Assembly (NCBI GenBank): GCA_963920765.1
Contig: OY987251.1
Span: forward strand, 12,589,219-12,653,218
Reading direction: 5' to 3'
Source of the DNA: Ulota crispa
Taxonomy: Eukaryota; Streptophyta; Bryopsida; Orthotrichales; Orthotrichaceae
Length of the DNA: 64,000 bases
The translations under genes were made by a program, and so were the position numbers. The notes below the pieces were generated by a model. The model was not told the origin of the DNA. It searched no databases and saw only the letters and a program-made list of their open reading frames with translations. Shown here piece after piece: positions 219-62,244 of this stretch; the stretch's first letter is position 1; each line of letters begins with the position of its first letter.

Positions 219-432
219 CCCTTGAAGGCCTGAACAACATTTTATTTTGGCAACATAGCAATTTTGAACATGTACTTGTGATTGGAGATTCTTCAAATAT
301 TAGGCTAGAATTTAATTGAAGGCGGGACAAGGAGTGTTTTTCATACACACTAACTTTCATGACATTTGAAGTTATGAGTACAAAAATATGGCTAAAAATG
401 TTTTTTTTTCCCAAGGCGGGCAGTTTGGGCAG

Positions 433-479
<47 letters not shown>

Positions 480-1164
480 CAAAATTTTGAAATTGGTTTA
501 GGAGATTTATGTATATCGGAAATCTTTGAATCATTCCATTTTGATTAATGAGATGAAATTTATGAGGACTTTTTGTTTGTTAGCAATTATGGATTCTTTA
601 TTCTAGAACAAATTTTGAAGTCTTTTATTTTACTCAATTTTTAATATTGTGAAAAAAATAAAAATAAAACCAAAGTATGTAGATTGTTTATTACAACACT
701 ACCACCATTGGGACAGGCATTTTTCATTTTTGGAATGAAATTTTCAACAGTTTTGTGTTTTAAATCATTCTCTACTTCTTTTTATTCACTATTTTTTCCC
801 ATATGTTTTGAAATTTCAAATGATTTCAAACGTTTTTGACATGTATCCTACTTAGGTGGAATAAGAAATCTAGAAAAGCACCACCCACATGGCCCTTTTC
901 TCTTTTGATTTTCACTTTCTAATGGGTAACTGCCGAGTTTTTCACAAGACCCAAAAAATTGTTTTTGAATATCTAAACTCTTCTATTTTCCAATCCATGC
1001 AGTAGAAAATTCTAATTTTTGTACTACATCTTCCAAAACTAGTCTATTGCAAGACCCTACCATTACATAAACATAAAAGTATTTTTATTTTCAGATTTGA
1101 TTGATGTTCTAAAAATGGCAATTTTAGAGAGTTTTTGGTGAAAATGCAGCTGGTCCTAAAGGGG
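219..1164 (+). mobile_element. TTAA-flanked non-autonomous element, family A, copy 1
   Basis: The element is bounded by TTAA at 215-218 and TTAA at 1165-1168. Its left end reads CCCTTGAAGGCC and its right end GGTCCTAAAGGGG, which is an imperfect terminal inverted repeat. The interior shares blocks with the other family A copies: a segment near 'gaaattggttt', one near 'tttgaatcattcc', and one near 'gaggactttttgttt'. It is about 946 bp, like its relatives, and includes a (TA)n expansion. No transposase frame is present. Assignment to a piggyBac-like group is inference from the TTAA target. Confidence 0.8.
433..478. repeat. (TA)n microsatellite
   Basis: About 23 uninterrupted TA units lie inside the family A element. 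Other copies lack this expansion, so it arose locally after insertion. Confidence 0.95.
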
Positions 1165-1262
1165 TTAAATAAACCCTGAATGTATCATTGATTTCCTGAA
1201 GGTTGACCTCAAGCAAATGGAAGCCAAGGTTGTTTATGACTTGTCTCTTTGCATGAACAGTA

Positions 1263-1471
1263 AGGTAGTGTGCTCTAATTTTGTTTGGTTCTAGGAACAA
1301 GAGATATTTTAGATGAAATATCTACAACTGTCAAGGATGTCTAGGTAGGCTTAGCATACTGCTAAGCCTACCTAACTCATCAATGACAGTCGTAGATATT
1401 TCATCTAAAATGCCTCTCGTTCCTAAAGCCAAACGCAATTAAAGCACGAACACAATTAGAGCACAGTACCT
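1263..1471. mobile_element. Near-palindromic hairpin MITE with TA duplication
   Basis: The ends are AGGTAGTGTGCTCTAATT and its reverse complement (one mismatch), flanked by TA at 1261-1262 and 1472-1473. Almost the whole 209 bp folds back on itself around a tiny loop near 1360 (arms share 'aggtaggcttagca'/'tgctaagcctacct'). It belongs to the AGGTA...TACCT group with a TA target. A transcript through it would form a long hairpin. Confidence 0.85.
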
Positions 1472-1603
1472 TAGGTTATAGTTTTGTGAAAACTGCGCAC
1501 CATAAATTACCCGCTAAAAGGGTTTTGGGGTGGGGGTAAAATTGAGCCACTGAATCAAGTGAATGTTTTTCAACTACAATCACAGTATCTGGATTGTAAT
1601 TAC

Positions 1604-1876
1604 CTACACTAAATACTGCATTTGGGTTGCTTTACCTTGGAAAGTTACCTCATAACCTATTGCTTATCCACTTAGAGGGCGTATGTAACTATCTAGATGC
1701 TAGGATTTTACATGCTTTACACTTGCTAGTTTTGCAGTAGCTTTGTTGTTGTTCTTCGGTTCAATTCAAAAATTTCTTGTTGTAATAATTATTGCTGAAA
1801 ATTATTAAAAGATCAAGTAAGTATTTATAAAAGCAACAGATGTCAAGAAATTAGTGTGGGGAATGCTAAATGCACT
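1604..1876 (-). mobile_element. MITE family Q, copy 1
   Basis: The end at 1604 (CACTAAATACTGCATTT followed by gggttgctttacc) and the end near 1870 (aaatgcactatttag) are inverted repeats. The interior block 'gttacctcataacctattg' matches, in reverse, the other copies at about 3.7, 7.4 and 22.4 kb. The TA target duplication is not clean at the right side. Confidence 0.6.
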
Positions 1877-1879
1877 ATT

Positions 1880-2652: not shown

Positions 2653-2654
2653 TA

Positions 2655-2980: not shown

Positions 2981-2984
2981 TATT

Positions 2985-3640
2985 GAGAAGTGGGAATAGA
3001 ACGCAACAAAGACGAGGAAACGTGGAATAACAGGACAGGAGGTAGTAAAAGAAGCAGACTACAGTAGTATGGAGGAAAAACACATAGGCGGCTGTTAGTG
3101 AAGATTAGAAGTAGGCGAAGCCGAAGATTAGGAGGAGCTAGAGAAGGAGGCGGGGCCAGCAGCAGTACGTGGCAGGAGAGCTTTTTGGAGCAGCAGGCCC
3201 CCGGGAATAGAAGGTTAGTTAAGAAAAGGAACGTGGGCCCACTGGCCCAGCGACGCGCCATTCGCCCAAGTGCCCAACAGAGCCAAAAGGTGCTCGGGGC
3301 GCCGTCACAGTCGTTAAATGTAACCGCTTCCATAATAGCAGAGCAGTCGCAAAAGGCTCTCTACTCCAGTCATCCACTGCTCGCCAGTCTCGCCACCACT
3401 GGGACGCTTTTGCTATTGGCGAGCCTGCATGCTGTCATCAAGGTCAGCACCTCCGCCTGACGTGTCCCCGGTTGCCATCGACGCGCTCCAGTATTAGGAC
3501 ACTTGGGACTTAATTTCAGGGTTAGTTAGTTATTACCCAGCCATAAATAACCCTCGCCTCTTCCCAGTTCCAACATTTGAGGCAAAACAATTTCCCTGGC
3601 TGGTTGTGTGTTCATTGCCCTAGTAAAGCCTAGTAAGTTA
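2985..3640. other. GC-rich unassigned island
   Basis: This patch is clearly more GC-rich than its surroundings, with strings such as 'gacgcgccattcgccc' and 'cgacgcgctccag'. The longest plus-strand frame (3098-3460) opens with GTG, has no ATG start and no recognisable domain. A CATAAATA string at about 3541 could be a TATA-like element, but no coding sequence follows because a family Q MITE begins at about 3660. It may be a gene remnant or a promoter/5' region; the function is unknown. Confidence 0.3.
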
Positions 3641-3659
3641 GTTCCGGTGTGCGAGCTAA

Positions 3660-3952
3660 ATACACTGAATATTGCGCTTAGGTTGCCCTACACTAATTTC
3701 TCAACATTGCACACTATTTAAATATTTACCGCTGTTACAGTATTTTTCATCAAAAATTGCTGTAGCAATCCATTTTTAGAGGGCCTATCAACAACATTGA
3801 AGCTCACAAAAGATAAACTAATGACTTCCAAGTCATAAACCATGTGAAATCTAAATATTTAGTGAGTTGCATAGGCTTCCAAGTGACCAAGTGATGAGTC
3901 ATGAGGTAACTCACCAGGGTAAGGCAACCTAAATGCAATATTCAGTATAGAA
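3660..3952 (+). mobile_element. MITE family Q, copy 2
   Basis: Left end CACTGAATATTGCGCTTAGG and right end cctaaatgcaatattcagta are inverted repeats, with TA dinucleotides flanking. The interior 'ttgctgtagcaatcc' and 'gagttgcataggcttccaag' align with the other Q copies. About 290 bp, non-coding. Confidence 0.75.
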
Positions 3953-7745: not shown

Positions 7746-8936
7746 ATTTGGTGTAATGAATTTCAAAATTTTCATTTCATAGTTTTTAAGGGGCGGCTAA
7801 CACTATGTTCCAAGTAATGAACGTAGAAGAAGGTGGGTACCATGTTAAAGTTGTTATTTGGAAATGTGAGTTTGAATGTGCTAAGTTGAGTCAAATGCAT
7901 TGCGGTTCAATGTAAGGACACCTTTTGTCACGGTGGTGAGTTACTTCTTTGGGATGGTTGTTTCTCCTATTCAAGAAAGTTATACTCTCTATGTGCACTT
8001 TAGAGTAGCTTCAATGGCCGCGCCATGTGGACCTTGTATTAATAAAATGGAGGAAGCAATATAAAAAAAGGACCCAATGGAAACAACAAGCAATGCATCT
8101 AGTTGAACGCATCTAGTTGAACGCATCTAGTTGGAGTACACATCAAATGAGAGCTTTGAAGCAATATTTTGGAACTCATTACTATGCCAAGTGAAGCACA
8201 AAGGTATAGTCAAAGTCATGATGACAACTAAGCTTGTTTGTAGAAGAAAAGGGAAGAGCAACTTCCTAGAGTGGCCTCATTCTCATGCAAATTCTTGAAG
8301 TGACCCCATTCCATGTCAAATGATAGCATGTCAATTCTTTGAATTATGAAGTGGGCCCACTCCGTGTGAGAGATTGTGTCAGAAAACGTGCACTTCTCTG
8401 GTCCCCGCCAAGCTTGTGTCAGGCATTAAATTACACTAGATGTCAGTTCCTCTATCAGCCCCCTTTCCATGTTATCAGATTATTCAAAGGCATTGGGTCT
8501 CTGCACTCATAATGCAACTCACTACTTACAAGAATCCATTAAACTAATCATTAAACTCTTTTATTACTTCCATTTACATGGTTACCATTAGGGCTGCTCT
8601 TAGATTCTTATGTTATCATCATGTGGTCCTAGCAAAACTTTCCAATGTATCATAGGTGGATCTAAAAAAATGAGCAATATTCCATCAGCAAGACTAAATT
8701 TGCATTATATGTGACCAAGAAATCAAATAGCATACCTACATTAAATGGGCATTCAGTTCTCCACTACCCACATGCATCACTTTCTAGGGACTGAGCCATA
8801 TTCAACATAGCAATGAGGATGCTCTATAGTCAAGCCAAAATCCACCTAATTCAATTCTCATTGAATTCTCAAATTTGATTGGTTAACAGGTTATGGCTTA
8901 TAACTTCACACAATGTCCTAACTTAAGACCTAAGCG
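7746..8936. other. Unassigned intergenic sequence
   Basis: No coding frame or terminal repeats are visible apart from the short tandem repeat at 8095-8133. Confidence 0.4.
8095..8133. repeat. 14-bp tandem repeat, about 2.8 units
   Basis: The unit gcatctagttgaac occurs twice in full and once in part. Confidence 0.85.
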
Positions 8937-8997: not shown

Positions 8998-9003
8998 TCA
9001 AAG

Positions 9004-10249: not shown

Positions 10250-10253
10250 TTAA

Positions 10254-11183
10254 CCCCTAAAAGACCATTGTCCCTTTGGGGGACAGGTTGGACTTTGGGC
10301 ATGTACCTATGGGTAAACTACTTTGTGTGATTTTCTGAAACTTTTATTGAAGGTGAGGAATTCAAAAATCTATGTAAGCATTTAATTTTTTCTTCATTCT
10401 GACATTTGATGAAGAAGTTATGCATGAATTTATGAAAATTTGAGGAGGGCTGCTCATCAGGGTAGCCCAAAAATCTTTTGTAAAAATTATTTTTTTTAAA
10501 ACAAAAATTTGAAATTGGTTCTTTAGATTTTTTTTATTCACAAGAAGCATTGAATTATTCAATTTCAATCAATGACATGAAAGTTATGAGGACTTTTTGT
10601 TTGCGGGCAGTTATGGAATCTCTACTCTAAAATAAACTTTGAAGGCATTTATTTTACTCAATTTTTAATATTTTGGAAAAAAAATTAAACCAAAGGAAGT
10701 ACATTGTTTATCACAACATTATCACCGTTAGGATTTGCATTTTTCATTTTAATAATTAAAATCTTAACAACTTTGTGATTTGACTCATTCTCTACTTCAT
10801 TTTACTTATTGATTTTTCCCATGTGTTGTATAGTTCCAATTGATTTGAACATTCTCCCACACATACCTAACTTGATCTCCTACATGGAAAAAAAAGCGCA
10901 ACTTTGGGTAGAGCAACTTTTTGTTATAAGAGTGGTCAAAAGCTTCTGAAATTTTTGGGCAGCATAGAAAAAAGCTTTTTTTTTTTACTTTAGATGTAAA
11001 TATCTCACTCCTCTCCATCTGGAATGAGCTATTTTTTTTCCCACAAGTACCTCTTCTAGTTTGGGCCAAGATCCTATGGTTAGATTTCTCAAAAACAAAA
11101 TATAAAATCCTTTTTTACTAAACCTCCTAAAAGTGGCAGTTTTTTGTGATTTTCAGAGAAAAAAGGACTTGGTCCTTTCAGGG
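10254..11183 (+). mobile_element. TTAA-flanked element, family A, copy 2
   Basis: It is bounded by TTAA at 10250-10253 and 11184-11187. Ends are CCCCTAAAAGACCATTGTCC and GGACTTGGTCCTTTCAGGG. The interior matches the other copies (gaagaagttatgca, ggttctttagatt, ctcctacatggaaaa). Length 930 bp, no coding capacity. Confidence 0.85.
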
Positions 11184-11187
11184 TTAA

Positions 11188-19763: not shown

Positions 19764-19873
19764 TAGTGAAGTTGGGTTCAAACATCACAAGAGAAAATCA
19801 CTACAAGTGTTCTATCTAAGCCAAACGGGAAGCTCATGGTTTTTACACAAGAGTGATCTTGATTGGCACTCAA

Positions 19874-20796
19874 CCCCTAAAGGACCAACTGTCCCCTTGG
19901 GGGACAAATGGATTTCGGGCATGTACCTACAGCTAATTTACTTTTTGTGATTTTTTGAAACTTTTATTGAAGGTGGGAAATTCAAAGATCTATGTGGGCA
20001 TCTAACTTTTTCTTCATTCTGACATTTATTGAAGAAGTTATGCATGGATCTTTGAAAAGGGGCGAGGGTGAGCAGCCAAAAAAAATTTCAAAATTGCAAT
20101 TTAAAAAAATTAAAATCTGAAATTGGTTCTTTAGATTTTTACAAATGTGGGAATCTTTAAATCACTCAATTTTGACTCATGAGATGAAAGTTATGAGAAG
20201 TTTTAGTTTGCAGGTAGGTATGGGACTCCCAAACCTCCATTCTTTTTGCATCTTGTAAAAAATTTTGCTTTTTTTTTTAAACTTTTTTTTCCAAGTTGTA
20301 ATAGACTAAGATTCCTTGGTTTTAGCCTTTTGGATTAAAGTAATTCAGATTTCTGAATTTTACATAAATTCTCCAATTTTGCCTAGCATATATGCAAATA
20401 ACATGGCCCTCCGGCATTGTAAATTTTACAAAGTATGATCCACATCTTCAATTCATTTGAAAATTCTCCCACACATACTTGACTTGGTCTTCTACATGGA
20501 AAAAATAAACCTCAACTTTGCATTGAGCAGTCTTTTTGATATGGGAGCCGTTAGAGGTTTCTGAAATTTTTGGGCAACAAGGAAAAAAACTTTTTTTCTT
20601 ACTTCAAATATCAATATCTCACTCCTCTACATCCAAAATGAGCTGAAAATTTTCCCTCAAATACCTCCCATAATCTAGGGCAAGATCTTATGATTGAATT
20701 TAAAGAAAAATTGTTTTTCCTACCTTTCTACTCAAAACCCCAAAAGTAACAATTTTCACTGATTTTTTATGAAAAAAGGGCTTGATCTTCTTGGGG
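19874..20796 (+). mobile_element. TTAA-flanked element, family A, copy 3
   Basis: Flanks TCAA (19870-19873, one change) and TTAA (20797-20800). Ends CCCCTAAAGGACCAACTGTC and CTTGATCTTCTTGGGG. Very close to the reverse copy at 30424-31373 over the block near 'ccctcattctttttgca'-type sequence. 923 bp. Confidence 0.87.
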
Positions 20797-21565
20797 TTAA
20801 ACGAAGCTCGCGGAGCCTAAAGAGTTGGTCGCTATTTGTGTTTGGTTAACCATGGCAACTGCAACTAACTCTTTATGCTCTACGAAATGGAGAAATTTCT
20901 CACCTAATGAAGAGCAACAATTGTGCTTGAGTGTATTGCGATTTCCAAAACCAATTGGAGATTAGGGCCACAAGTTCCTTGGCAGGTCGTTACGGGAATT
21001 GCACGCGTTACAGGACCCTCCTTTTACCTTTTTGGGGCTCTTACCCTTGCCCCCAATGAGGATGCCATTAGGTCCTTGTGCAAACATATGTTATGGAGAT
21101 TGAAAAATATTCACCTATTTGTAGCCCAAGTTTGGCCACCTTGTTAGAAGGGAGCACTGAGCACACAACCCTTGCTATTGGGATTAATGCCATGGTAGAG
21201 CCAGTACAGATCATTATGTTATAGACAAGTCCTACTCTGTGTGTAAACAGACATTAAAAAATCCTAATTTTTTTAGAAATTTAGTCATCTATAAATGGAA
21301 AGGTGAAAAAGAGTTACCTAGCAACTAAGGACAAGCAAACTTCCATGAGATTTGGAAGGAACTTTAAAATAGGTTGATGACCTGGACTTATGCACTTTCT
21401 ATTTTATGATTCATTCCAGAGGCATGTCAAGTTATGGGTTTAATTTTAAAATGAACAAAAATACAGACTTGGATGGTTTGACCCAGAGTTTATTATTTCC
21501 CAAAAGCTCTCTTCCAAGACAGCAACACACACTAAAAAGTGATTGGACAAGTAATCAGAAAGGGC

Positions 21566-22040: not shown

Positions 22041-22634
22041 CACACGCTAACAAAAACAGAAGCTCCAATAGCCAACAACAAAGCAACACATTTTCATTCT
22101 CCGCATGGAGCCAAGAAAGTGCTGTGATTACCCATAGTGGCTCTCCCCGCCAACCATAGCTCCCCATCCAAGAAATGGTTAGGGTCGTTGGACCATCAAA
22201 AGTAAGGTATTTTCATTTGCGTCAAGAGAACAAAAAGAAAAAAGAAAAAAGAAAACATAAAACATAAAACATAAAGATTATAAATGTGTATAGATACTTT
22301 TTGTTTTAGTTTTTGTCCATGATGTTTATTTGGGTCGGTATAAACTCTTACACCAAATGTTGCATTTAGGTTCCCTACGCTATTTTTTTGATATTTTACA
22401 CTACATAAATACTTATTGATACTACATTAATTTTCATCAGCATAAAATATTTAAAGGGCTCAGCAACAACTAAGTTGCAAAACATTATAATAGCAACATT
22501 TAGGTCACAATCCAGTGAATGTTTAGGTCATAATCCATGTGAAATCCTTATATCTAAAGAGTTGCACGAACCTCCAAGTGGCCAAGCAATGAGTTATGAG
22601 ATAAATTTCTACAATAAGGCAACTTGAACATTAA

Positions 22635-23544
22635 CCCCTAAAGGCCCAACTGTCCCCTAGGGGACAAATGGATTTCAGGCATGTACCTATAGCTAATCTA
22701 GTTTTTGTGATTTTTTTTAAATTTTATTGAATGTGGGGAAATCCAAGACCTACGCAAGCATCTATTTTTTTCTTCATTTTGACATTTGACAAAGAAGTTG
22801 TGCAAGAATTTCAGCAATTGGGGGAGGGCAATCCAGGCGGCCCAAAAACTTCATTAAAATTTGAATTTTTAAAAATAAAAATCTAAAATTGGTTCTTTAG
22901 ATTTTTTCGTAAGTGGGAAGCTTTGAATCATTCAATTTCAATAAATGAGATGAAAATTTTGAGATGTTTTTGTTTGTGAGTAGTTATGGATCCTCTATAC
23001 CAAAATAAACTTTGAAGTCCTTTATTTTCCACAATTTTTAATACTTTGGAAAAAAAACTAAACCTTAGGAGGTAGATTGTTTATAACAACATTATGACCG
23101 TTGGGATTTGCAATTTTCATTTCAATAATTAAATTCTTAACAATTTAATGATTTGACTTATTCTCTACTTCTTTTTACTTACTACTTTTTTCTAGTTGAT
23201 TTGAAAATTTTCCCACACATACCTAACTTGGTCTTCTACATGGAAAAAATAAACGCCAACTTTGCGTAGAGTAATTTTTTCATGTAAGAGTGGTCAAAGG
23301 CTTCTAATTTTTTTGGACAGCATTGAAAAAAACTTTTTTTTTTCACTTCAGATTTAAAATATCTCCCTCCTCTCCATCTAGAATCAGTTGATTTTTTCCC
23401 CACAAGTACCTCTTCTAGTCTAAGGCAAGATCCTACAAGTGGATTTGCAAAACAAATTTTATTTCCTACTTTTCTACTCATTCCCTCCAAAGTGGCAATT
23501 AATAGTGACTTTCATTGGAAAAAAAGGGCTTGGATGTTTAGGGG
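22635..23544 (+). mobile_element. TTAA-flanked element, family A, copy 4
   Basis: TTAA at 22631-22634 and 23545-23548. Ends CCCCTAAAGGCCCAACTGTC and CTTGGATGTTTAGGGG. The 910-bp body has the standard family A blocks. It shares its right TTAA with the next element. Confidence 0.88.
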
Positions 23545-23548
23545 TTAA

Positions 23549-24464
23549 CCCCTAAAGGACCATTGTCCCTTCTGGAGACAAATGGGATTTTGGGCATGTA
23601 CTTATGGCTAAACTATTTTGCGTGATTTTTTACAACTTTTATAGAAGGTGAGGAATTCAAAGATGTATGTGGGAATGTAATTTTTTCTTCGTTCCGACAT
23701 TTATTGAAGAAGTTATGCATGAAAATATGGAAAATGCTGCTCCCCGGGTAGCCACAAACTTCTTTAAAATTTTCATTTTTTTCAAATAAATCTGAAATAG
23801 GTTCTTTAGACTTATATAGACATGGAGAGCTTTGAATCATTCAATTTTGATAAATGAGATGAAAGTTATGAGAAGTTTTAGTTTGCGAGGTGTGGTTTCG
23901 CTCTAAAAAATAACTTATAAACTTCATTTTGAATGCAAATTTAACATTTTTGCAAAAAAAATTATTGGAAAGGGTGAAGATTGCTTGCTAGAACAATCTC
24001 ACCATTGGGATTATTGTGATTCAATTCCATTGCTAGGTAATTAACAATGTAAGATTTTGTTCAATCTGAAATAGTCTTCTATTTAATGTTTTTTTAATGA
24101 ATGAAAATTAAGTATTTTCTGTTTTGGTTTTTTTCAAAAGATTCTTAACTCAATTCCCCACCATAAAAAAATAAACCTCAAAACTCCATGGTTCAAAAAC
24201 TTTAAGTTAAAAAAGTTCAAAGTCAAATAATCTAGTCATGCAAGGTGCAAAAAAACTTATTTTTTACACTTTAAATGCAAATTTCTTGCAATTTGTGCGG
24301 TCAAAGTTTTTAAGTTTTGAAGGACATATTCTTATACAAATCTAGTACAAGATCCTATGGCCAAATATGCAAAAAGACTAATCTTCAAACTTTTTAACTC
24401 TTTGTCTTAGAAGTGGCAGTTTTGAGTATCTTTTGACAAAATAAAGGTCATGGTCCTTTAGGGG
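23549..24464 (+). mobile_element. TTAA-flanked element, subfamily A2, copy 1
   Basis: TTAA at 23545-23548 (shared) and 24465-24468. Ends CCCCTAAAGGACCATTGTCC and CATGGTCCTTTAGGGG. Its interior (tcatgcaaggtgcaaaaaa, aaaactccatggttc) resembles the reverse copy at 51116-52034 rather than its neighbour, so the pair is not a simple tandem duplication. Confidence 0.85.
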
Positions 24465-24491
24465 TTAAGGTAACCTAAATGCAGTATTTAA

Positions 24492-25524: not shown

Positions 25525-25544
25525 TTAAAGCAAGGAGTGCATTA

Positions 25545-27305: not shown

Positions 27306-27307
27306 TA

Positions 27308-28199: not shown

Positions 28200-28201
28200 T
28201 A

Positions 28202-35134: not shown

Positions 35135-35318
35135 TCTTCTGCGGTGCCTAAATCTGTGACAAGAGTTGCATCAGGGTTTGGAGGATCTCTCCAATGAAAG
35201 AAGCAACAAATTTATTTAGGTGGGAAGAGACACACAATTGACCATTCCCTGTTCCAATCCCAATGTATGTGTTGATGATGCCCTCAGTTCACCTTGGCCC
35301 CCGTTGAACCCCTATTAA

Positions 35319-36552: not shown

Positions 36553-36556
36553 TTAA

Positions 36557-37483: not shown

Positions 37484-37487
37484 TTAA

Positions 37488-41580: not shown

Positions 41581-41584
41581 TTAA

Positions 41585-42515
41585 CTCCTAAAAGCCCAAG
41601 CCCTTTTCTCTAGTGAAAGTCATTGTTAACTGCCACTTTGGGGGGAATGAGTTGAAAAGTAGGAAATAAAATTTGTTTTGCAAAACCAACCGTAGGATCT
41701 TGCCTTAGACTAGAAGAGGTACTTGTGGGAAAAAATCAGGTCATTCTAATGAAAAGGAGGGAGATATTTACATCTAAAGTGAAAAAAAAAGGTTTCTTTT
41801 CCTTACTGCTACAAAACTTTAGAAGCCTTTAACCACTCTTACATGAAAAAAATTACTCTACGTAAAGTTGAGGTTTATTTTTTCCGTGTAGAAGACCAAA
41901 TTAGGTATGTGTGGGAGAATTTTCAAATCAATTGGAACTACACAACACATGGGGGAAAATAGCAAGTAAAAAGAAGTAGAGAATGAGTCAAATCACTAAA
42001 CTGTTAAGAATTTAATTATCAAAATGAAAAATACAAATCTCAATGGTTGTAATGTTATAAAAAATAGTCTACTTCCTTAGGTTTAGTTTTTTTTCTAAAA
42101 TATTGAAAATTGTGGAAAATAAAGGACTTCAAAGTTTATTTTAGTGTAGAGGATCCATAACTGCCCACAAACTCAAACATCTCATAACTTTCACCTCATC
42201 GATTGAAGTTGAATGATTCAAAGCTTCCCAAATATGAAAAAAATCTAAAGAACCAATTTCAGATTTCTATTTTTAGAAAATACAAAATTTTAAGAAAATT
42301 TGGGCTGCCCGGATTGCCCTCCCTCCCTTGGGCAGCATAAATTCTTGCATAACTTCTTTGTCAAATATCAAAATGACAAAAGAATTAGATACCCGCATAG
42401 GTTTTAGAATTCCCCACTTCTAATTAAAGTTCAAAAAAATCACAAAAACTAGATTAGCTATAGGTACATGCCCAAAATCCATTTGTCCTCCAAGGGGCAG
42501 CTGGGCCTTTAGGGG
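41585..42515 (-). mobile_element. TTAA-flanked element, family A (reverse)
   Basis: Flanks TTAA (41581-41584) and TCAA (42516-42519). Ends CTCCTAAAAGCCCAAGCCC and CTGGGCCTTTAGGGG. 931 bp, standard interior. Confidence 0.86.
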
Positions 42516-42519
42516 TCAA

Positions 42520-48538: not shown

Positions 48539-48542
48539 TTAA

Positions 48543-49190
48543 CCCCTAAATGCCCAAGCCCTAGCTGAGTTTCTTGGACTTTCCATGAAACTGAACAATC
48601 AATCAACCTCTTCACAGATTTCATCAAGTTTTTTTCAATTGTAACCGTACAGATTTAAGCTAGACATGTTAGAGATTACATGGAAAAAGATAACAGAACA
48701 ATATCACTTATAGGTTTGAAAAACTATAATGTTTGAACATGAGGGTGTTAAAATTGCAAAAGTGACTTAAAGCCTTCCAATCATCATTTCACATGTCAAT
48801 CCAAGAAGTTGGTCACCATAAAAATATGAGGTTTACGGTCATTACATGTCTAACTTGAATCAATTTACAAGTTTGAAAATCTACTCCTACATTATTTTTA
48901 AACGGATTTCTAATGTGGACTTTTCTCCAAGCTCTAGTGTATTTGAGGCTCATTTTCAAGATCTTCCAACACTAAAAATCTCAAGATTGCAGCAGACATT
49001 CTTGTACAAAATCTCAAGTAGAAAAATTATCAACTTTTATTTTCAAAATTAGATTTTTGATGTTGAATGTAGACTTCAAAACAAACTCATAATGAAAAAA
49101 AATATATACTGAAAATAATGATTTGATAAGGTTTTATTCAACTTCAAAGTTTCCTTGTGACCCAAATCTGGTCGCTTGGGCATTTAGGGG
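48543..49190. mobile_element. TTAA-flanked element, family C
   Basis: TTAA at 48539-48542 and 49191-49194. Ends CCCCTAAATGCCCAAGC and GCTTGGGCATTTAGGGG are perfect 17-bp inverted repeats. The 648-bp interior differs from families A and B. Confidence 0.9.
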
Positions 49191-49318
49191 TTAACAACTG
49201 CAAATGTCTTATACGATTACATAATGACTCAATCACAGTTGTTTAGAACATTTGCAATCTTTGTGAATTGGTCATTTAGGATATGATTTCTTTTAGTGTA
49301 CTGTTTGCATGATATATA

Positions 49319-51111: not shown

Positions 51112-51115
51112 TTAA

Positions 51116-52034
51116 CCCCTAAATCCCTGGGGTCTTTGTTTTGTCAAAAGACACTCAAAATTGTCATTTTTATTGTAAAGAGTTTTTTTTTATTTTTATT
51201 TTTTAAATTGGTCTTTTTGCATGTCTAATTGTAGGATCTGGTACTAAACTAGTATAAAAATGTGGTAACAAAAATTCAAAAACTTTGACTGCACAAACTG
51301 CAAGATAATTGCGTTCAAAGTGTAAAAAACAGATTTTTTTGCACCTTGCATGATTAGGTTATTTGACTTTGAATTTTTTTTTAACTTAAATTTTTTGCAC
51401 CTCAGAGTTTTGAGGTTTATTTTTTTAAGGTGGGAAATTGAGTTGAGAATCTTTAAAAAAAATCAAAACAAAAAATACTTAATTTTCATTCTTAAAAAAA
51501 ACATTAGGTAGAAGAAGGTATGAGATTGAACAAAAACTTAAATTGTTAATAACCTTGCAATGAAATTGAAACTCACTAATCCCAATGGTGAGATTGTTCT
51601 AGCAAACAATCTTCACCCTTTCCAACAACTTTTTTTGAAAAATGTTAAAATTGCAATCAAAACTAAAATTTATAAGTTATTTTTTCAAGAAGATGCTTGA
51701 ACTACCTAAAAAACAAGATTGTTCATAATTTTCTCATAACTAGTTCAAATGGAATGGATCAAAGCTTCAAATGTAGACAAAGATATAATCTATGAGAAAA
51801 AAAAAATCAGGTTTTTGTAAAGTTTTTTTGCTGCCCAATTTGCATAAATTTTTGCTTATCTAGGCATAACCTTTTCTTTTGGGCATTGATTGGAATAAAA
51901 ATTATATTCCCCAAAAGCTAATGTGTTTTCCTATCTTCAAAAAAAGTTTCAAAAAATGAAAACAAAAATTGAAGCTGTAGGTACCTGCCCGAAATCCCAT
52001 TTGTCCCCCGAGGGGACACTTAGGGATTTAGGGG
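51116..52034 (-). mobile_element. TTAA-flanked element, subfamily A2, copy 2 (reverse)
   Basis: TTAA at 51112-51115 and 52035-52038. Ends CCCCTAAATCCCTGGGGTC and CACTTAGGGATTTAGGGG. The interior shares 'tttgcaccttgcatga' and other segments with the inverse of the copy at 23549. Confidence 0.86.
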
Positions 52035-52964
52035 TTAATGTATAATAAAGTCAATTGTAATCAGTAGTTCTCCTTTAAACGTCTTAAGGCCTTTGTAGCA
52101 TTTTTTTGATTATAAAGAATTTGCACTACGTTTGTTTTGGAGCAAATATTTGCCAATTTTGTCAAGTTTGGATAACTTTGATCTTGTTCTTTTCAAATAA
52201 TACTCATTGAAAGTTGAACAACAAAAATGTTGCTTCCAAAAACCACCTAATGAAATGCAAACATTAACTCCTAAAGGACCAATGAGTCCACTTTGGGCTT
52301 TTGGGATATTCAGGCAAGCATTTCTCAAGTAAATGCAATTGATAAGTGTGAGCGTTTTTTCTTCCACCTACAAAAAAAAGCAAACACAACCGGATTGCAA
52401 AGAAAAATAAAGGGAAACAAACTTAAAAATTGAGTGAAATTACGTTTGGTTCAATTTGTGTCTTCCAAGCAATGAACAAAACTTAGATTTTCTATGTCTA
52501 AAGTTTTTTTAATAAATTAAAGTGTTTTTAAACAATTAGCGACTCAAATTTCAAAAGTAAAGAACTCAAAATGTAAGAAAATATAAAACAAGGTCAAAGA
52601 TGGAGGATCATACCTCCATCTCTATCTCTTCTACGAATCATATTTCATCCTTGAGCTCCATGGATGTAATCCCAAATCAAATCAAAACTAAATGGAAAAA
52701 ATCACTCTTTTTTCTTTTGTTTTATTTTATTTATTTATTTATTTTTAAATTTTAAACCTTGATTAAGGGTTTGCTAAGTAGGATTAAGGTTGGGAGATTA
52801 GTAATAGCATTCAAACACAAATATAATACTAAATGTTGGAGCCCTGGATTCTGGCTTGCCCAAGCCGCTCGCCACGCTCCGCCGCCTGCTCGCCTCCGCG
52901 GTCCTGCTGCGGTTGGCCAGAGGGTAAAGACTGAATACTAGCGGTCAAATAAAAATCTGTCAAC

Positions 52965-53074
52965 GTCAGTGCAGGAGCTGCGACCGTGGGGGCCGTTGGC
53001 CATGCGGAGGTGCTGAAGCTGTCGGCTGCCTTCCGAAAGACTAGGGTTTGAACCCCTGGCTCGACCCTCTTTTT
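52965..53074 (+). repeat. tRNA-like (Pol III-type) module 1
   Basis: A B-box-like string GGGTTTGAACCCCTGG at 53044-53059 lies in a GC-rich stretch with an upstream 'gggggccgttggcc' resembling an A-box region, and is followed by a five-T terminator-like run. It suggests a tRNA-derived SINE fragment; it is not a functional tRNA. Confidence 0.4.
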
Positions 53075-53231
53075 ACTGTTGGGGTCGTTGACCGCTCGTC
53101 AATGGTGCTTGTTTTTTTGCTTCCTCTGTTGACAGCTGCTGGTCGTCACTGCCTCGTTGTTGCTGGCTCGTCGGTGAGAAAGAAGTATTTATAAATACTA
53201 TTGATAGCACCTCTGTCACAGCAGGTGCTAT

Positions 53232-53308
53232 GGTGCAGCCGCTCAGCCTGGTGGTGTGTAGGACATCCGGATGACTCTCTGGAGGTCGGGAGCTCGAATT
53301 CCCGCACC
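53232..53308 (+). repeat. tRNA-like module 2, SINE-type candidate
   Basis: The 77-nt segment starts GGTGCAG and ends CCGCACC (six of seven acceptor pairs). It has an A-box-like GCTCAGCCTGGTGG and a T arm CGGGA/TCCCG around GCTCGAAT. The D stem is poor and the anticodon arm cannot be assigned. It looks like a tRNA-derived SINE head and not an active tRNA gene. A 42-T run follows at once. Confidence 0.45.
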
Positions 53309-53310
53309 AA

Positions 53311-53313
<3 letters not shown>

Positions 53314-53355
<42 letters not shown>
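53314..53355. repeat. Run of 42 T
   Basis: A homopolymer directly downstream of the tRNA-like module. It may be a retroposon tail or an over-expanded Pol III terminator. Confidence 0.95.
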
Positions 53356-53358
<3 letters not shown>

Positions 53359-56028
53359 TTTTTCTTCAAATTTCGAGCTGTCGGGTGTTAGATCCAAAGA
53401 AGATCCAAATGCTTTAAACCAAAAAAAACCCAAATGCTTTAAGCACTAGTATGCTTTTAGTATGGTATTGATGTGAGTACTATTGAAGGAAAAAAAAGAT
53501 CTAGCACTCATGAATGGAATTTGGAAGTACCGGTATAATTCAATATCTCCAAGTATTAGTGTATGACTAAGGAAAATGACTTCTAATATTTCCTCTTAGC
53601 TTCAAAGCCTTCTATCAAATTTCTCATTCTCTCAATGCTTTTTGATATGCAGTCACTCACTTCCAACTCACTAACTTCTTTTGGTTAGTAACTAATGTTT
53701 CCACTAACACCTTTACAAAGATTTTGAAAAGTAAATTTGTTAATTCTAGCAAAAGTTCACCAAAGATTCCCCCTAAATTTTATAACTTTGAAACTACAAC
53801 TCTAACTCTGGCAAAAACTCGCCAGAGGTTCCTTTAGGTTAGTAATAATCCGAAAGAAAACACACTCAAAAGTACAAAGATTAGTGTTGATTTGCAAACA
53901 ATATTAGTATGAGGACTTCAATGTTAGTAATAGGTAAGTAAAGCATATACAAGGACTCTAGAAACTTGTGGCCTGTGGCATTGCCAGGTCTTGGCCAAAA
54001 GTTTCCTAAAATTAGTATGGACACCTCAAGACCTTAACTAACCTTTATGGGTCTTAATTGCACCTACAAAGCATAAACACAATAAAAAAACAAGCAATTG
54101 ACTTTAAAACACAAGGTTAGTAACCTAGAAAGGACCCCCAAGTCATAGGAGCAAGACTCATCAAAAGACCTCCAAAAATACTATATAGACACAAAAGTAC
54201 AAAAAAAACTCAAAACTTTGAAATTGCAAACTACACAAATGAAAACAAAGGAGGGGGTGAGAAAGAAAGAGAAGGGATGTATTATAAACCAACCCCTCCA
54301 AGGATTTTTTATCAATCCATGGAGTGATCTTTGACCTCCTACTTTTTTTTCTTCCAATTTTTTAATTTTCTAAAAATAGTAATTTGGAGTTACAAGCTAA
54401 CTTTTGAAGAAAAGCTCCAAATTACAAACAAATGGTCCCATTGGCTTTAGAATGCCAAAATTAGCTGGTTTAGACACCAAAAACAATTAATTCCTACAGA
54501 TAAAACTCAGAAAGTCTAAAATTGGTCAAAACATGGAAAGTAAAACTTTAAATTTTGGAATTTATTTATCTCTAAAGTTTTGACTTCATCAACTTCTTCA
54601 AAATGTTTGAGAAAATAGGAAAATACTTTTCTTTTGCCAAATTTGAACTTCAAAATCTCTCGGAATTGCGGTCATCGCATTTCTCATTCGCGGAGCTGCT
54701 GAAGTAGTTTGTTGTCGCTCGTTGAGGTAGTTCCCATGCTTGAAACGCCTCCAAATTTGTTGGGGAGTCCTATTAATACAAAACAACATATTGTTTTTTT
54801 TGTGCAATTTTACCGCTAATTGGGAATTTTCTAGGAATATTTTGTTATTAATTCTAGCGATTGACCGTCTGGTGAAAGAGATTTGACAATCAAAATTTTC
54901 CGGAAATTTTTGTGGAATCTCCCATGAGGTTCTACAACATTTAGTCAAACTTCTATTTTTAGTCCAACTTCTTTAAATTGTGGCTGATTTAAAGTTGGCT
55001 CTAGCCCTATCATACTATTTATAGATTTATCCTTCCAACTACTTTTAATTTACAAAAAGTAGGAAATAGGTAGTAAAAAATATAGGAGATATCTTTGTTT
55101 ATCTAACTATTTCTAAATTTAGCTTAAACTATTTTTTTGGTATTTTTTACGTTTTTTCTTACTAAAATGCAAAATAAAAATTAAAAAGTGAGCTTTTCAA
55201 TCAAGGTGCTAACCTTGGAGCTCACAATAAGATTGTGAAAATAAAGGAGTTTGTGCTCATATCAAAAATCTTGCATACCTCTCAAAAAATAGTGGAACTG
55301 AACCATTTTTGAGTGAAATATGGTACCATATGTGATTTAGATGTCAACATAGGCATCCTCAAAAGAATTAGAAAAACAAAGGGATTGAGGAAGGGTGTTG
55401 CCCAAATAGTGTTCAAAAGCACTTTGCAATGGCTTGGTCAATGGGCAAAATTTGCAATCAACTCTCCTTGATTATGCAATACCTTATGTTTTACTTTTTA
55501 TTTTTAGAAATTACCTACTTCAACAAGTACTCCACATGATGTTCTAGATTTACACTATACAAATTTTGTAATTGAGATTTATTTCTATAAGAATCTCATT
55601 AGTGAAGTTTTCTTAGTGACAATTTGAACAAAGCAATTCCCGCTTCCGATTGTTTTCTATTATGTTTTAAGCATTGGGTGATCATGAAATTTATGAGGCT
55701 TATAGCCAACTTCATGCTCTACAAGAAATTTAAATTGCACAAGAAAATCATAAAGTGGAAGATATCATTTTGAATGACTGAACTCAAAAATTAACACCTT
55801 AGAAGAGCTTCAAAAAAAGTTTTGCCCCTACTTGAGTGCTATAGTCTAATGAAGTATGCCCTCACAAAGTTTGGATTTTTGAGAAGATGTACATAAACAA
55901 GTGAAAAAATAGATCTTAAGGTTAAATTATTGGAAGGAACTCAAAATTTTGATTTACTAATCATTTTATTGAGAGAGGTCAATTTGAGCCATTTGACCAT
56001 GTAAACACAAAAGAATTTTAGGGTTTAA

Positions 56029-56285: not shown

Positions 56286-56430
56286 TAATACCATATTCAG
56301 TAATTTAGAAAAAAAAAATTGGGACTTCCACACTTTATGCCCTTGAAGATTCAATAAATACTTTTTAGAAAATGTGAAAACTCAAAAGTTCCAAAATTGG
56401 GGTTTTTCCAAATCAATGAATATTGTATAT
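56286..56430. mobile_element. MITE family S, copy 6 (short)
   Basis: Left 'accatattcagtaattt' and right 'aaatcaatgaatattgtat' are inverted S-type ends, with interior 'ttccaaaattggggttt'. About 145 bp. Confidence 0.55.
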
Positions 56431-58051
56431 ATTCACAAGATTGATGCAAAACATGAAGAGATTTGTAGATATTCAAAAACATTAAAAAATCCACAATTCA
56501 TGAATAGTTCATAAGCCATCAATATGTATGATATATGGAGTAGATGTTTTAGTTTCTAGATTGCACAACAGATTGGAGAACATCCACAATCACTTCTAAT
56601 GTATTTTGCTTTTTTCTCAATGAAGGATGATGACCTTTTTTTAACCCATGTGTCCAAAGTTCATATTGTAGATGATGATATGCTTCCAAATTGAGAGTAT
56701 AATTTTGTCTAAATAACATTTCATTTATCCAGTGTGATACACAAACCTTCATGGAGGAATCTTCTTATGATCATTTTTCATATAACTGATATAGCCAACA
56801 CATTGTCCATTACAAACCTAAATATCACAAAATTTGGAAAACTAATTAATAGAGACCAAATCCAATGCAACAAATCAAGAAAAAATGACCAATTTAATTG
56901 CAAAGTGTGCACAAGCTAAAATATTCCATTAGTGTTTATTGTCATATTTATTGAAGAAAATCATGTTTCAAAGTATCAAAGTTGTGAAATTCAAATATGC
57001 AGGAACCTTTCAATTAATTGTTAGGGTACCTGTATAAATCTAGGGTGGGTGACTAAAAAAATGTAAATTTCTAAAAACTTAAGACTCCATATGCTCTGTA
57101 CTGTGAAACAGAAATTGTTAAATTAGCTTTTGAAATCAAGAGTAATCACATGATTGAGCTTTGCACCCTCTTAACTTTTGTCATACAGTACTGATTCTTC
57201 ATTTTCATCTCATGTCTACTTTGATGTTGGCGTATATTAAAATATGTATTCATTTAAAAACTTATAGACTCTTCTTGTATATATCTAAATGCCATGCTGC
57301 TTTTAAATTTAGTTTTATTTTTCACATAGCCTTTTAATGTTCTTCATGAATCACTTAAATAAATATATCCAATAGATGTGCATCGGGCTATAAATGAATA
57401 ATTCTTTTACTATATGCATATGTATAAGAAAGAGCATTTTGATCATAAGAACAGACTTTGATATTTCTTTCTCTAAGCACCATATCATTTTGGCAACATC
57501 TTTCAGCATTTGCTCCTTTTGATCAATATCCACAACTTTTGTATATATTTTGCAAAACAATCCATTTACACGCATCAAAATTTTACTGGTTGTAGGTTCA
57601 CCAATATTTTTTAAATACAATACCAAAATTTGTTCCATCAAAATGCATAAATCATAAAATTTGTACCTTTGAGTTTCCCATTTGTATCTTTTGGTTTAAA
57701 GTCTATATATATAATAGATCTGGGTGTTTGTTGGTCAAGCATGTTTTTCCTACATGGCTTGCTGCAATTGCCTAGGGTGTCTATATGTATGTATCAGTTA
57801 GGAGGGGGTTGCATAATAAAATTGCACATGGGCCATGGAGGGCATGCATGGGGCCATGGGGGTTGATAAAATTTAAGAGGGGGCTCCATGATAAAATGTC
57901 CGTATGTATGTAATGTATGGATTAGGGCATGCATGGAGCCATGGGGGGTGATAAAAATAATCATAAAAAGTTCTCGGATTGATATCTCACCTGTCGCACA
58001 TTAAAAAAACAATTAAAATAAGCCTCACCTATCACACATTAAAAAAAATGA
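56431..58051. other. Unassigned intergenic sequence with a local duplication
   Basis: No gene is recognised; the minus-strand frame 57351-57641 has no known domain. At 57828-57952 the phrase 'gggcatgcatgg.gccatgg' followed by 'ttgataaaa' or 'gtgataaaa' occurs twice. Confidence 0.35.
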
Positions 58052-58059
58052 TTAAAAAA

Positions 58060-58662
58060 AGGAATTGATATGTGCACACCAGGGGTTGATATGTGCACAC
58101 CGGGGGTTGATATGTGCACACCGGAGGTTGATATGTGCACACCGGGGGTTGATATGTGCACACCAGGGGTTGATATGTGCACACCGGGGGTTGATATGTG
58201 CACACCGGGGGTTGATATGTGCACACCAGGGGTTGATATGTGCACACCGGGGGTTGATATGTGCACACCGGGGGTTGATATTTGCGCACCCCCTTGGGAG
58301 GTAAATTGTAGATTTCTATCATCAAAAAGCTGAATTTGAGAATTTTGAATTCAAATTTGGACTTAGAGACCATGGTTTACTTTAGAACCATAAAAAAGTT
58401 TGCAACTGAACAACACCCAATGAAAAAGCTTATCTTTTTTTACACACAAAAGTAAAAGTAACACTTTTTCCCCTAGCTAAGCCTTTTTAGTGAGTGTTGT
58501 TTAATTGCAACTTTTTTTAATGGTTCTAGAGTAAACCATGGTCTCTAACTCCAAATTTGAATTCAAATTTCTCAAATTCAACTTTTTGATGGTAGAAATC
58601 TACAATTTACCTCCCAGGAGGATGTGCAAATATCAACCCGAGGTGTGCACATATCAATTCCC
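58060..58662. mobile_element. Foldback element P1 with 8-bp duplication
   Basis: Ends AGGAATTGATATGTGCACAC and GTGTGCACATATCAATTCCC, flanked by TTAAAAAA (58052-58059, 58663-58670). Inverted arms (about 58295-58480 versus 58480-58640) share 'atcaaaaagctgaattt' and 'agaccatggttta'. The left arm end is expanded into a 21-bp minisatellite. Confidence 0.88.
58064..58291. repeat. 21-bp minisatellite, about 11 units
   Basis: The unit ttgatatgtgcacaccgggg plus one base is repeated with few changes. Because 21 is a multiple of three, several frames stay open (for example CTPGVDM repeats), but these are artefacts of the array. The unit is the foldback's own terminal repeat. Confidence 0.95.
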
Positions 58663-58670
58663 TTAAAAAA

Positions 58671-59191: not shown

Positions 59192-60334
59192 GAAAATTGA
59201 TATGTGTGCACTTGAGATTTGATATATGTACACTACTTAATGAGAGGTAAAGTAGAGGTCAATTTTAGATGTTTATCATCAACAAGTTGAATTTGGAAAG
59301 TTTGAATTCAGATTTGGATTTAGAGATTTTAATCTAGTTTAGAATCACAAAAGAGGTTACAATTGAACAATGTTTAGTGGTAAAACTTAGATAGGGGTGA
59401 ATGTTACTTTTATTCTTGTTTGTATAAAAAACTAGGCTTTTCTATTGGGCATTGTTCAATTGCTACCTTATAAACTAAATCAAGGTCTCTAAATCCAAAT
59501 TTGAATTCCAACTTTCCAAATTCAACTTGATGATGGTAAATATCTAAAATTCATCCCCCATTTTGCTTATGGGTGATTGCAAGAATGACCTGTACTACAT
59601 AATGTCCCCCTCACCTTGTGCTGCTTGTTTTTTGCTTGTAATTTTTGCTAAAGAAGTCATATTGACTTATTCTTTTAGATTAACATGAACATGCAAGTTA
59701 TTGACGTTCATTGATTTTTTGGTGTTTTTTAAAATTATTTTGTTATTTTTATGCAACCTCCAAACAGGTGTCTACCTTAGCCAATTTGGGGGTTTTTTGT
59801 ACTATTTTGGGTCCAAAAAAGCTTTTCTAGGGCTATAAACTAGGGATGTTGTTTATGGAGCATGCTTACACGCATCAGTAGAAGAATTTTGCAAAATTAT
59901 AAATTCCATGGCATCTACATTGTCTTAAAGTGGGCGTCCTATCTCCCTTCATTGGCAAAATACAAAGAAATTCCTCAGCAAAGCAATTGTACCATGTAAA
60001 TGTGTTTAATGGGTTCTCAAACAGTCATTTTTTTTTTTTTTTTTGAATTATTTTACTATTTTCTAAAAAGCAAGAAAGAAATTGGCTTTTTAAGGTGATT
60101 TTGTTTTGCGCATAACTTTTAGAATAAAAAATTTCTAGGTCTGAATTTTCACAAATATGCTATCTTAAGTGCTTAACAAATTTTCCGTATTTTATTTTAT
60201 TTTTAAAAAAATTATTCCAAAAGCTCAGAAGTACTATTAGTACTACCAATACTAAGGGTGTTTGAGGTAAAACAAAGAGGTCATTCTTGCAACTACCCTT
60301 ATATCAAACCCTAAGTGTGCACATATCAATTCTC
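59192..60334. mobile_element. Foldback element P2 with 8-bp duplication
   Basis: Ends GAAAATTGATATGTGTGCAC and GTGTGCACATATCAATTCTC, flanked by TTTCTATA (59184-59191, 60335-60342). Inverted arms 59265-59400 and 59455-59560 match those of P1. It is interrupted by a 728-bp element. Confidence 0.87.
59571..60298. mobile_element. 728-bp TIR element nested in P2
   Basis: Ends GGGTGATTGCAAGAATGACC and GGTCATTCTTGCAACTACCC are inverted repeats, flanked by TTAT (59567-59570, 60299-60302). Rejoining the flanks restores the P2 right end (gcttatatcaaacc). It contains a poly-T run at about 60029-60045. Superfamily unclear. Confidence 0.82.
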
Positions 60335-60410
60335 TTTCTATATATCACACATTAGCAAACATGGTCCTTCAAATTTTTCAAAATGTGTTGTGTAAAACAA
60401 ATTTAAATAA

Positions 60411-60817
60411 GGGAATTGATATGTGCACATTGGGAATTGATATATGCACACCCCCAAGGGTACTTTATAGATTCCTACCATGACAAAGCTAAATTTGAGA
60501 ATATTGAATTTAGATTTGGACTTAGAGACCATGATTTAGTCTAGAACCATAAAGAAGATTGCAATTGAACAACACCCATTGAAAAAGCTTAGCTAGGGGG
60601 AAAAGTGTTACTTTTACTTTTGTTTGTATAAAAAGATAATTTTTTCATTGGGTGTTGTTTAAGTGCAACCTTTTTATGGTTCTAGATTAAATTATGGTCT
60701 TTGAGTCCAAATTTGAATTCAAAATTCTCAAATTCAGCTTTTTGATGGTAGAAATCTATAATTTACCCACTAGGGGGGGTGCATATATCAACCCTAGGTG
60801 TGCACATATCAATTTCC
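60411..60817. mobile_element. Foldback element P3
   Basis: Ends GGGAATTGATATGTGCACA and GTGTGCACATATCAATTTCC, flanked by TTAAATAA and TAAAATAA (one mismatch in eight). Arms match those of P1 and P2. There is no minisatellite; only two terminal units occur at each end. Confidence 0.86.
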
Positions 60818-60852
60818 TAAAATAATTATACAAGATCATCTTTTGCTTTAAA

Positions 60853-61046
60853 CACTAGAAGAAAAACAAGGATAAACGACTCCACAAATCACAACGACTA
60901 GGTCACCAGAACTGCCTTCCAACTACACAAACAACTGCACAACAACTACACAATTAGATTGTAGTTGTGCAAATGTTGTGGAGTTGTTGTGCAATTGCAA
61001 GGCAGTTCTGGTGACCTAGTCGTTTATCCTTGTTTTTCTTCTAGTG
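60853..61046. mobile_element. CACTA-type MITE, 194-bp near-perfect hairpin
   Basis: Ends CACTAGAAGAAAAACAAGGA and its exact complement ending TTCTTCTAGTG, flanked by AAA (60850-60852, 61047-61049). The arms extend through 'acgactaggtcaccagaact' with near-perfect pairing. Confidence 0.9.
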
Positions 61047-61106
61047 AAACAGAATAGTGCATTTGGATGCATATACAAATGATGAAATTGTTTTCTACAA
61101 ATTTAA

Positions 61107-62244
61107 CCCTTGAAGGGCCTTTGGGCTCTAGAGCTACGGTATCAAATATAGTTGTCATCAATATTCAGAAGTTTGAATTAATTAGAAATTAAGTGTTACA
61201 ACCATACATATTAACCCCTTAGGGCCAGAGGAGGCAGAAATTGACTTCTTAGGTTTTGAAATTAAGTTTAGGGTGTGTCACCAATTTTGGATCATGGGTT
61301 GACCAGTTACAAACATGTAAGGAATGAAGTCTATTTTCACGAGCACTTGTTTAATCAAAGTTTGGAATTGCATCTTGTTGTAGAGAGAGTGATTGATTAG
61401 AAGGGGTATCAGAAAATTTGAATGTTTAGTACAAATCACTCACTAAAATACCAACAAGAGGATGATGTCACTTGGTGTCTTTAGGAACCAAGTAAATATT
61501 GCCTTGACAACAATCAATCCAATTATTCTTTGGCTTTGTACCCCCTACTTAAGCATTTAAATCCTTTTAGCATTGCACGGTTAAAATCACTTACATATTG
61601 TCACACTTCTTTTGAAAAAACACATGGTCGTAGATCAATACTATTCAAATAATTTCTTTGATTGGATTTTCTAACCATGCAAATCTTATTTTTCTTAAAA
61701 TGATCAAAATTTCATGATCTTTTCCACAATTTTTGCACGCTAACCACCCATGCCTTTCCTTCATTGAATACAACAAACGGTACAACTTTTTCCCAAAATC
61801 CCAAGTCCAAGCCCTTCAACATATCACATATAAGAAAAGTGCACAATTTCAAAATCTAATTCTAAAGTAGTTGCTTGTAGAAGCCATTCATTTAACTTGT
61901 ACAATCCAAACTTAATCTAATGCACCACCTTTCACTTAACCGATGCAGCACATATCACAAGCAGATAGGTCCAAAAAATTTACTTGCTTATCTTCCAAGA
62001 CCGCAACTTACATTGGTACGATTGGATTGTGCTTTTTAAACATTTGAATTAATTGCTAAAAAGTCTGAAGCAATTAGTTTTTCCAAAAGAACAACAAGCT
62101 TGGAAAGCAAGCGACTCTAAAGGGTTAAAAGGTTGTATGATGATGGGTGCATATATTTTTTTGAAAAACCCCTAGAGTAGCTCAAATATGTTTGTACGTA
62201 TGGTCATACATATGGCCGCAAATGGCATTTGGGCCCTTCAAGGG
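61107..62244. mobile_element. TTAA-flanked element, outer copy
   Basis: TTAA at 61103-61106 and 62245-62248. Ends CCCTTGAAGGGCCTTTGGG and TTTGGGCCCTTCAAGGG. It contains a second TTAA element. Confidence 0.75.
61215..62124. mobile_element. TTAA-flanked element, inner copy
   Basis: TTAA at 61211-61214 and 62125-62128. Ends CCCCTTAGGGCCAGAGG and GCGACTCTAAAGGG. The inverted repeat is imperfect. The 910-bp length matches family A, but the interior differs. Confidence 0.6.

Follow-up and report, generated by a model that had tools for sequence, protein, structure and literature searches.

TTAA-flanked miniature elements in the genome of the moss Ulota crispa and their relation to the piggyBac superfamily

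Overview

In the moss Ulota crispa, a 64,000-nucleotide stretch of contig OY987251.1 (assembly GCA_963920765.1, positions 12,589,219 to 12,653,218), which is referred to here as the window, contains many elements that are bounded by TTAA and end in related, C-rich sequences. With a probability of about 0.95, these elements are miniature inverted-repeat transposable elements (MITEs) of the piggyBac superfamily. The MITEs would have arisen by internal deletion of transposase-bearing elements, and related transposases would have moved them by cut-and-paste at TTAA. A decayed 8.03-kb element, which shares their termini, is related to them in its subterminal sequence, and carries a piggyBac transposase, would represent their full-size relative. 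Further regions and loci of the same genome are designated L001-L041, and its contigs C1-C11.

Target site

The target of these elements is TTAA, with a 4-bp duplication, rather than TA. In the window together with L009-L028 (264 kb), TTAA is present at 50 of 58 termini that were gathered without requiring it, and there is no conservation further out. Genome-wide, an exact TTAA lies ahead of 7,555 of the 8,876 CCCCTAAAGGACCA termini (85%). Single departures from TTAA occur at each of the four positions (305 VTAA, 288 TVAA, 177 TTBA, and 257 TTAB), and the other 294 termini make up the remainder.

The elements that lack TTAA are informative about the length of the duplication. Left ends flanked by VTAA or TTAB were paired with right ends of the same classes within 2 kb on C1, C2, and C3 (to ~8.2 Mb). 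Such a right end is present for 15 of 85 left ends (16 pairs), where a rough estimate gives 1.9 under independent mutation. The same 4-mer is found on both sides of 12 of these 15 elements, at TTAG, CTAA, or TTAT sites (the chance of a match being 0.21), and on both sides in 10 of 12 when only pairs shorter than 1.3 kb are taken. Under a 2-bp duplication of TA the inner base would stay A; thus, the matching 4-mers support four duplicated bases.

Two empty sites could also be rebuilt. Removal of 61211-62128 and one TTAA from the window leaves a 232-bp sequence that aligns in 232 gapless columns (79% identity) to L005 1501-1732, where the site is TTGA. The rebuilt site of the 8.03-kb element aligns across the junction with the MITE L010_5485 (218 columns, 74%, TTAA) and with the MITE L021_5169 (78%, TCAA); both alignments contain gaps elsewhere and none at the site. 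The original prediction, which had named TTAA rather than TA as the target, is borne out by the 85% of 8,876 termini, the spread of departures over all four positions, the two empty sites, and the 12 matching 4-mers; the genome-wide flanks do not have the variable NTAN form that it had set against its own claim.

piggyBac transposases

A profile search of the genome with PF13843 (DDE_Tnp_1_7) gave at least 120 matches, the best with an E value of 1.3e-73 (116 of 528 candidates scored), and the same profile had no match in 14 control genomes. By our own count, stops are present in 110 of the 120 listed matches. Eleven transposase loci, L029-L039, were examined. A Pfam scan of open reading frames (ORFs) from ten of them (all except L039) found PF13843 in every case and no other family. 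By sequence, one transposase ORF matches the piggyBac of T. ni (6x67, E 4.1e-20) and piggyBat (9c0f, E 5.8e-17); with a profile made of six ORFs, these values become 2.4e-43 and 1.5e-46, respectively. All three aspartate motifs, whose aspartates we take to be the catalytic residues, were found by a motif scan of ORF pieces in 8 of the 11 loci. Of the other three, L029 carries N at the third motif, L039 gave no hit for the first, and L035 missed the second pattern though its alignment shows DNF. A Cys/His-rich C-terminus was seen by eye, rather than with a model, in the L033 ORF and in P0140, P0142, and P0147.

On aligned pieces the 11 loci are 27-67% identical to one another and fall into about four groups: L029/L032/L035, L030/L036/L039, L033/L037, and L031/L034/L038, the last of which is held together only by an unrooted split (0.91). 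Public relatives of the transposases number 184 at E ≤1e-10 (the best 120 being listed), with 16 more for L029. Since public proteins from the L029 search interleave with the groups, the moss copies do not form one private clade. Three pairs of transposase matches have identical or nearly identical scores and lie on opposite strands (C2:36765124 and 36779670, C7:18203169 and 18223004, C10:676128 and 785346); these are possibly inverted segmental duplications.

Links between MITEs and transposases

The fully bounded transposase element lies at C7:11814404-11822436 (L041 and L033). It starts with TTAACCCCTAAAAGCCC and its end, read inward, is TTAACCCCTAAAGGCCC. Its first 177 bp resemble positions 1-177 of a family A MITE, window 36553-37487 (65% identity), and the final 533 bp resemble positions 401-935 (61%, E 6.7e-24); the interior holds a broken PF13843 domain together with a nested MITE. 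Because the flanks of this element form one empty site, both ends derive from one insertion. The L037 locus resembles the L021_5169 MITE on both sides of the transposase (67% over 236 columns on the left, 83% over 592 on the right), and the 3' side of L034 resembles window 61211-62128 in the right part of the latter (65% identity in 530 columns, E 1.6e-55). Three MITE types are thus linked to transposases, namely family A to L033, the L021_5169 type to L037, and 61211-62128 to L034. L033 and L037 belong to one lineage and are 42% identical; the three linked loci are 35-42% identical to one another.

A MITE link was sought at first within ~2 kb upstream of the transposases, and none was found there because the 5' regions are long; DNA from further upstream settled two cases. 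On the 3' side, a terminus matching at least 11 of 13 positions lies within ~1.1-2.1 kb downstream in 10 of the 11 loci (all except L034), which, with MITEs so dense, is little proof alone. In L032 and L035, which are separate insertions belonging to one lineage, the homology stops exactly at the right TTAA or TTGA. The left end of L029 was not found. The search that the original prediction had proposed, for a PF13843 transposase with the same termini, thus yields one fully bounded case and a second, L037; the coding copy carries PF13843 and not a transposase of another class.

Alternative explanations

Several observations weigh against the assignment of the window elements to piggyBac, or against parts of the proposed origin. 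No piece of a piggyBac protein is present among 9,614 ORF pieces of the window and another 224 kb, and the genome search for transposases covered PF13843 alone. Only 2 of the 11 transposase loci are matched at both ends; in one of these, L037, the left terminus is eroded, and the 3' end of L034 shows no clean TTAA terminus. Matches of 61-67% at several ends show relatedness rather than direct parentage. The 4-mers differ between the two sides in 3 of the 15 elements at non-TTAA sites, and these 15 may include copies made by segmental duplication. The differing 4-mers would also suit MITEs of the Tc1/mariner superfamily (Stowaway-like), in which TA would be duplicated and the outer T and A would be element ends or a target preference; TA does lie within TTAA, and the termini can be read as ACCCC...GGGGT. 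However, the inner base is not fixed as A in the 12 elements that carry the same TTAG, CTAA, or TTAT on both sides, departures of similar order affect all four positions, and the linked transposase is PF13843. A Tc1/mariner origin with a 2-bp TA duplication was therefore rejected on the evidence of the non-TTAA elements, and such an origin is next to impossible. Another superfamily with a TTAA target, for example Kolobok (whose target we take to be TTAA), would not be separable by target alone. It is nonetheless very improbable, given that the transposase with these termini is PF13843 and that related ORFs show sequence matches to piggyBac and piggyBat proteins of solved structure.

Even if the elements belong to piggyBac, a single transposase could mobilize all of the families; the original prediction had suggested one transposase for many of them. 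The families have a common terminus plan, CCC(C/T)TNRNNGNCC, and two of the three links between MITEs and transposases fall in one lineage, L033/L037. Yet the ends of three MITE families match three different loci, which like the 11 loci as a whole are well diverged. Furthermore, terminal positions 9-16 agree more within elements (5.41 of 8) than between elements (4.61 of 8; p 0.001, 29 exact-terminus pairs from the window and L001-L028). A single mobilizing enzyme is consequently unlikely, and this part of the original prediction is not supported, although the common terminus plan would be compatible with cross-mobilization.

Abundance in the genome

The exact 12-mer TTAACCCCTAAA occurs 15,477 + 15,495 times in 274.8 Mb, versus 41 + 36 for a reversed-pattern control; for a more general form of the terminus, TTAACCCYTNRNNGNCC, the counts are 15,909 + 15,876 versus 8 + 11. 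The termini are C-rich inverted repeats of ~15 bp. A library of 33 elements taken from elsewhere was compared with sixteen 10-kb regions at round coordinates (L013-L028) and matched 17,126 of 160,000 bases (10.7%), in what is a small sample searched with a library that is far from complete; the reversed library matched none. Library matches are absent in 3 of the 16 regions.

A conserved domain upstream of the transposases

Upstream of the transposase and on the same strand, 6 of the 11 loci, from three of the four groups, contain a stretch with a motif like WRYLFYRQIAKLLGW (protein-level search, E 7e-19 to 0.005). It lies at L030 589-960, L029 524-871, L039 5-286, L034 5028-4807, L038 4927-4700, and L035 ~154-488, and no such stretch was found in L031, L032, L036, or the two longer loci (L033 and L037). 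When the L030 copy was searched against the genome, 46 matches were obtained, and in 28 of these a listed transposase match follows within 8 kb on the same strand, compared with a mean of 0.095 in 200 random placements (the lengths of C10 and C11 being estimated in this control). One further copy is near a transposase in a different arrangement. Because the list is restricted to the best transposase candidates, the remaining 17 or 18 copies speak neither for nor against the association. The distance from domain to transposase is 1.4-4.4 kb, with a median near 1.75 kb.

The stretch is probably coding, on the basis of protein-level similarity between diverged loci. A codon-position test was tried and set aside as not discriminating, because the pattern 2<1<3 was seen in 12 of 15 cases in frame but the reverse strand also gave 10 of 15, and each other frame 6 of 15; amino-acid identity in this comparison is 33% versus 26-28%. 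Pfam gave no family at E ≤0.1 for four copies or stretches of the domain, and two single-member matches (E 0.2-0.26) are probably noise. The best match in a search of the PDB had an E of 0.72.

The domain could be a 5' exon of the transposase gene rather than a second gene. It is on the same strand, 1.4-4.4 kb away, and plant genes are often spliced. However, the domain was not found in 136 public relatives of the transposase (best E 0.51) or in three of our own ORFs, and one of the public proteins, P0004, has a Met ahead of the usual acidic stretch; on the other side, introns may have been left unjoined in these 136 proteins. We regard a 5' exon as a serious contender that falls somewhat short of even odds. 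The broader picture would be that mosses harbor an old and diverse two-gene piggyBac branch, in which the transposase is accompanied by a conserved helper protein from a new domain family, with several deep lineages and with deletion derivatives that make up at least a tenth of the genome. This picture is tentative, and was rated slightly lower after the codon-position test failed to discriminate. Harbinger elements, which have a different transposase class and a 3-bp target, encode an accessory protein that is needed for transposition; the likeness of a transposase with an accessory gene applies only if the upstream domain is a separate protein. By analogy, the helper may be needed for transposition, although this is a guess.

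Elements and other features of the window

The sequence TTAACCYCTAAA, with at most 2 mismatches, occurs 72 times in the window versus 23.7 ± 5.1 expected, and none of 100 shuffles reached 72. From the listed termini, 15 elements were paired by hand, and a 16th, the nested 61211-62128, was added later. Exact TTAA is present on both sides of 14 of the 16, in agreement with the original count of at least 15 TTAA-bounded elements with related C-rich termini. Some listed termini, such as 42750, 43824, and 63918, have no partner. When 50 elements (window plus L001-L028) were clustered, they fell into 11 groups (of 26, 6, 5, 2, 2, 2, 2, 2, 1, 1, and 1 members), and this 50-element library, which includes the window's own elements, has homology over ~17.4 kb of the 64 kb.

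Most of the window elements belong to family A (~930 bp), whose repeats were seen in a self-comparison of the window; 17 copies have a mean identity of 69%. Delimited by both repeats and pairing of termini are the elements at 10250-11187 (938 bp, plus strand, TTAA on both sides, also supported by clustering), 19870-20800 (931 bp, plus, TCAA left and TTAA right), 30420-31377 (958 bp, minus), and 41581-42519 (939 bp, minus, TTAA left and TCAA right). Pairing of termini identified 22631-23548 (918 bp) and 23545-24468 (924 bp), both plus, which are tail-to-head neighbors with one common TTAA, as are 35315-36556 (1242 bp, plus, its left terminus having an extra C) and 36553-37487 (935 bp, plus). 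The last of these is the MITE that aligns, over its initial 177 bp and its final 535 bp, with the two ends of the C7 transposase element. Pairing also gave a variant at 51112-52038 (minus), in which an altered inner terminus (TCCCT) is common to both ends. For the copy at 33194-34029 (plus), which was recognized by repeats and library homology, no exact termini were found. Neighbors with a single TTAA (or TCAA) also occur at L035 4946-4949, an arrangement that would fit a later element having entered the site duplicated by an earlier one. In L012 (1911-9722), a 223-aa ORF is present in two mirror-image copies (3122-3790 and 7843-8511), each beside a family A MITE, which suggests an inverted duplication.

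Family B includes 24488-25528 (1041 bp, plus), which is 88% identical over 736 columns to 55305-56028, and 52264-56028 (3765 bp, plus; termini pairing and homology), which has ~2.9 kb of additional interior. The family C element at 48539-49194 (656 bp; termini pairing and clustering) has the terminus CCCCTAAATGCCCAAG. Termini pairing also gave a 954-bp non-autonomous element with TTAA flanks at 215-1168, which clusters with L002 1501-2400, and a miniature element at 26600-26746, with 139 bp between the TTAAs. What had been described as a pair of elements at 61-62 kb does consist of two elements, but they are nested: the 918-bp element 61211-62128, which is homologous in its right part to the 3' flank of L034, is inserted at a TTAA of an outer 232-bp element (61103-62248), as seen in the empty-site alignment to L005 1501-1732. 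No strand is assigned to the last five elements, from family C onward. A predicted 61-bp miniature could not be identified; the closest candidate (37421-37487) turned out to be the inner right end of 36553-37487, a family A element.

Elsewhere in the window, a tandem array with a 21-bp unit like GTTGATATGTGCACACCGGGG occupies 58018-58332, and a related stretch of 59 bp is found at 60394-60452. Long, near-perfect inverted repeats cluster at 26340-29019 (97% between 27334-27699 and 27809-28174, for instance) and may form a foldback structure. Among the best 120 of 1,457 matches, the closest named relatives of a P450 ORF (5652-6833, minus strand) are in the moss Ceratodon purpureus (80% identity over 84%), followed by Calypogeia, Diphasiastrum, and Riccia. 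An Rfam scan of the window at gathering scores gave no matches.

Comparison with known piggyBac elements

The moss elements share with the piggyBac superfamily, as represented by T. ni piggyBac (6x67) and piggyBat (9c0f), a TTAA target with its duplication, short C-rich inverted termini, and a DDE_Tnp_1_7 transposase with the aspartate motifs. Insect piggyBac elements are described with TTAA duplications and short termini (PMC12732532, PMC10140906), and those of beetles with CCCT and CCCTTT ends and intact lengths of 2.1-3.5 kb (PMC12732532). In contrast, the host here is a moss, the bounded element is 8 kb long, an upstream domain is present in 6 of 11 loci, and there are at least ~15,500 copies. 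Teratorn, in which a fish herpesvirus is fused to a piggyBac (41-182 kb including viral genes), is likewise a piggyBac with further genes (PMC6431247); here the addition is one short conserved domain.

PiggyBac annotations in other plants already exist, which weighs against strong novelty. PiggyBac is named among the MITE superfamilies of angiosperms (PMC10004981) and among the DNA transposon superfamilies of plants (PMC10794571), and the repeat table of the C-fern lists 1,230 PiggyBac copies (122,417 bp, 0.00% of the genome; PMC6890710), and plant occurrences are described as occasional, red algae being the example (PMC12732532). In the accessible sections of the angiosperm and C-fern reports (PMC10004981, PMC6890710), PiggyBac is named and evidence from transposase or target was not found. 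Unlike these annotations, the present data combine coding relatives, termini, and empty sites in one genome, with a load of about a tenth of the sample. Within the open-licence PMC literature, as far as its text was accessible, no moss piggyBac or conserved second gene was found, subscription papers and Repbase reports being outside this scope; in the portion seen of one moss paper (PMC10619864), "piggybac" occurs only within the word piggybacking.

The piggyBac superfamily, which is best known from animals, here accounts for a large share of a land-plant genome, in which coding relatives, MITEs, and target-site evidence are found together. The moss elements provide a natural plant piggyBac for comparison with the animal enzyme that already serves for marker excision in plants. 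Should the upstream domain prove to be a separate protein, these elements would have a partner gene.

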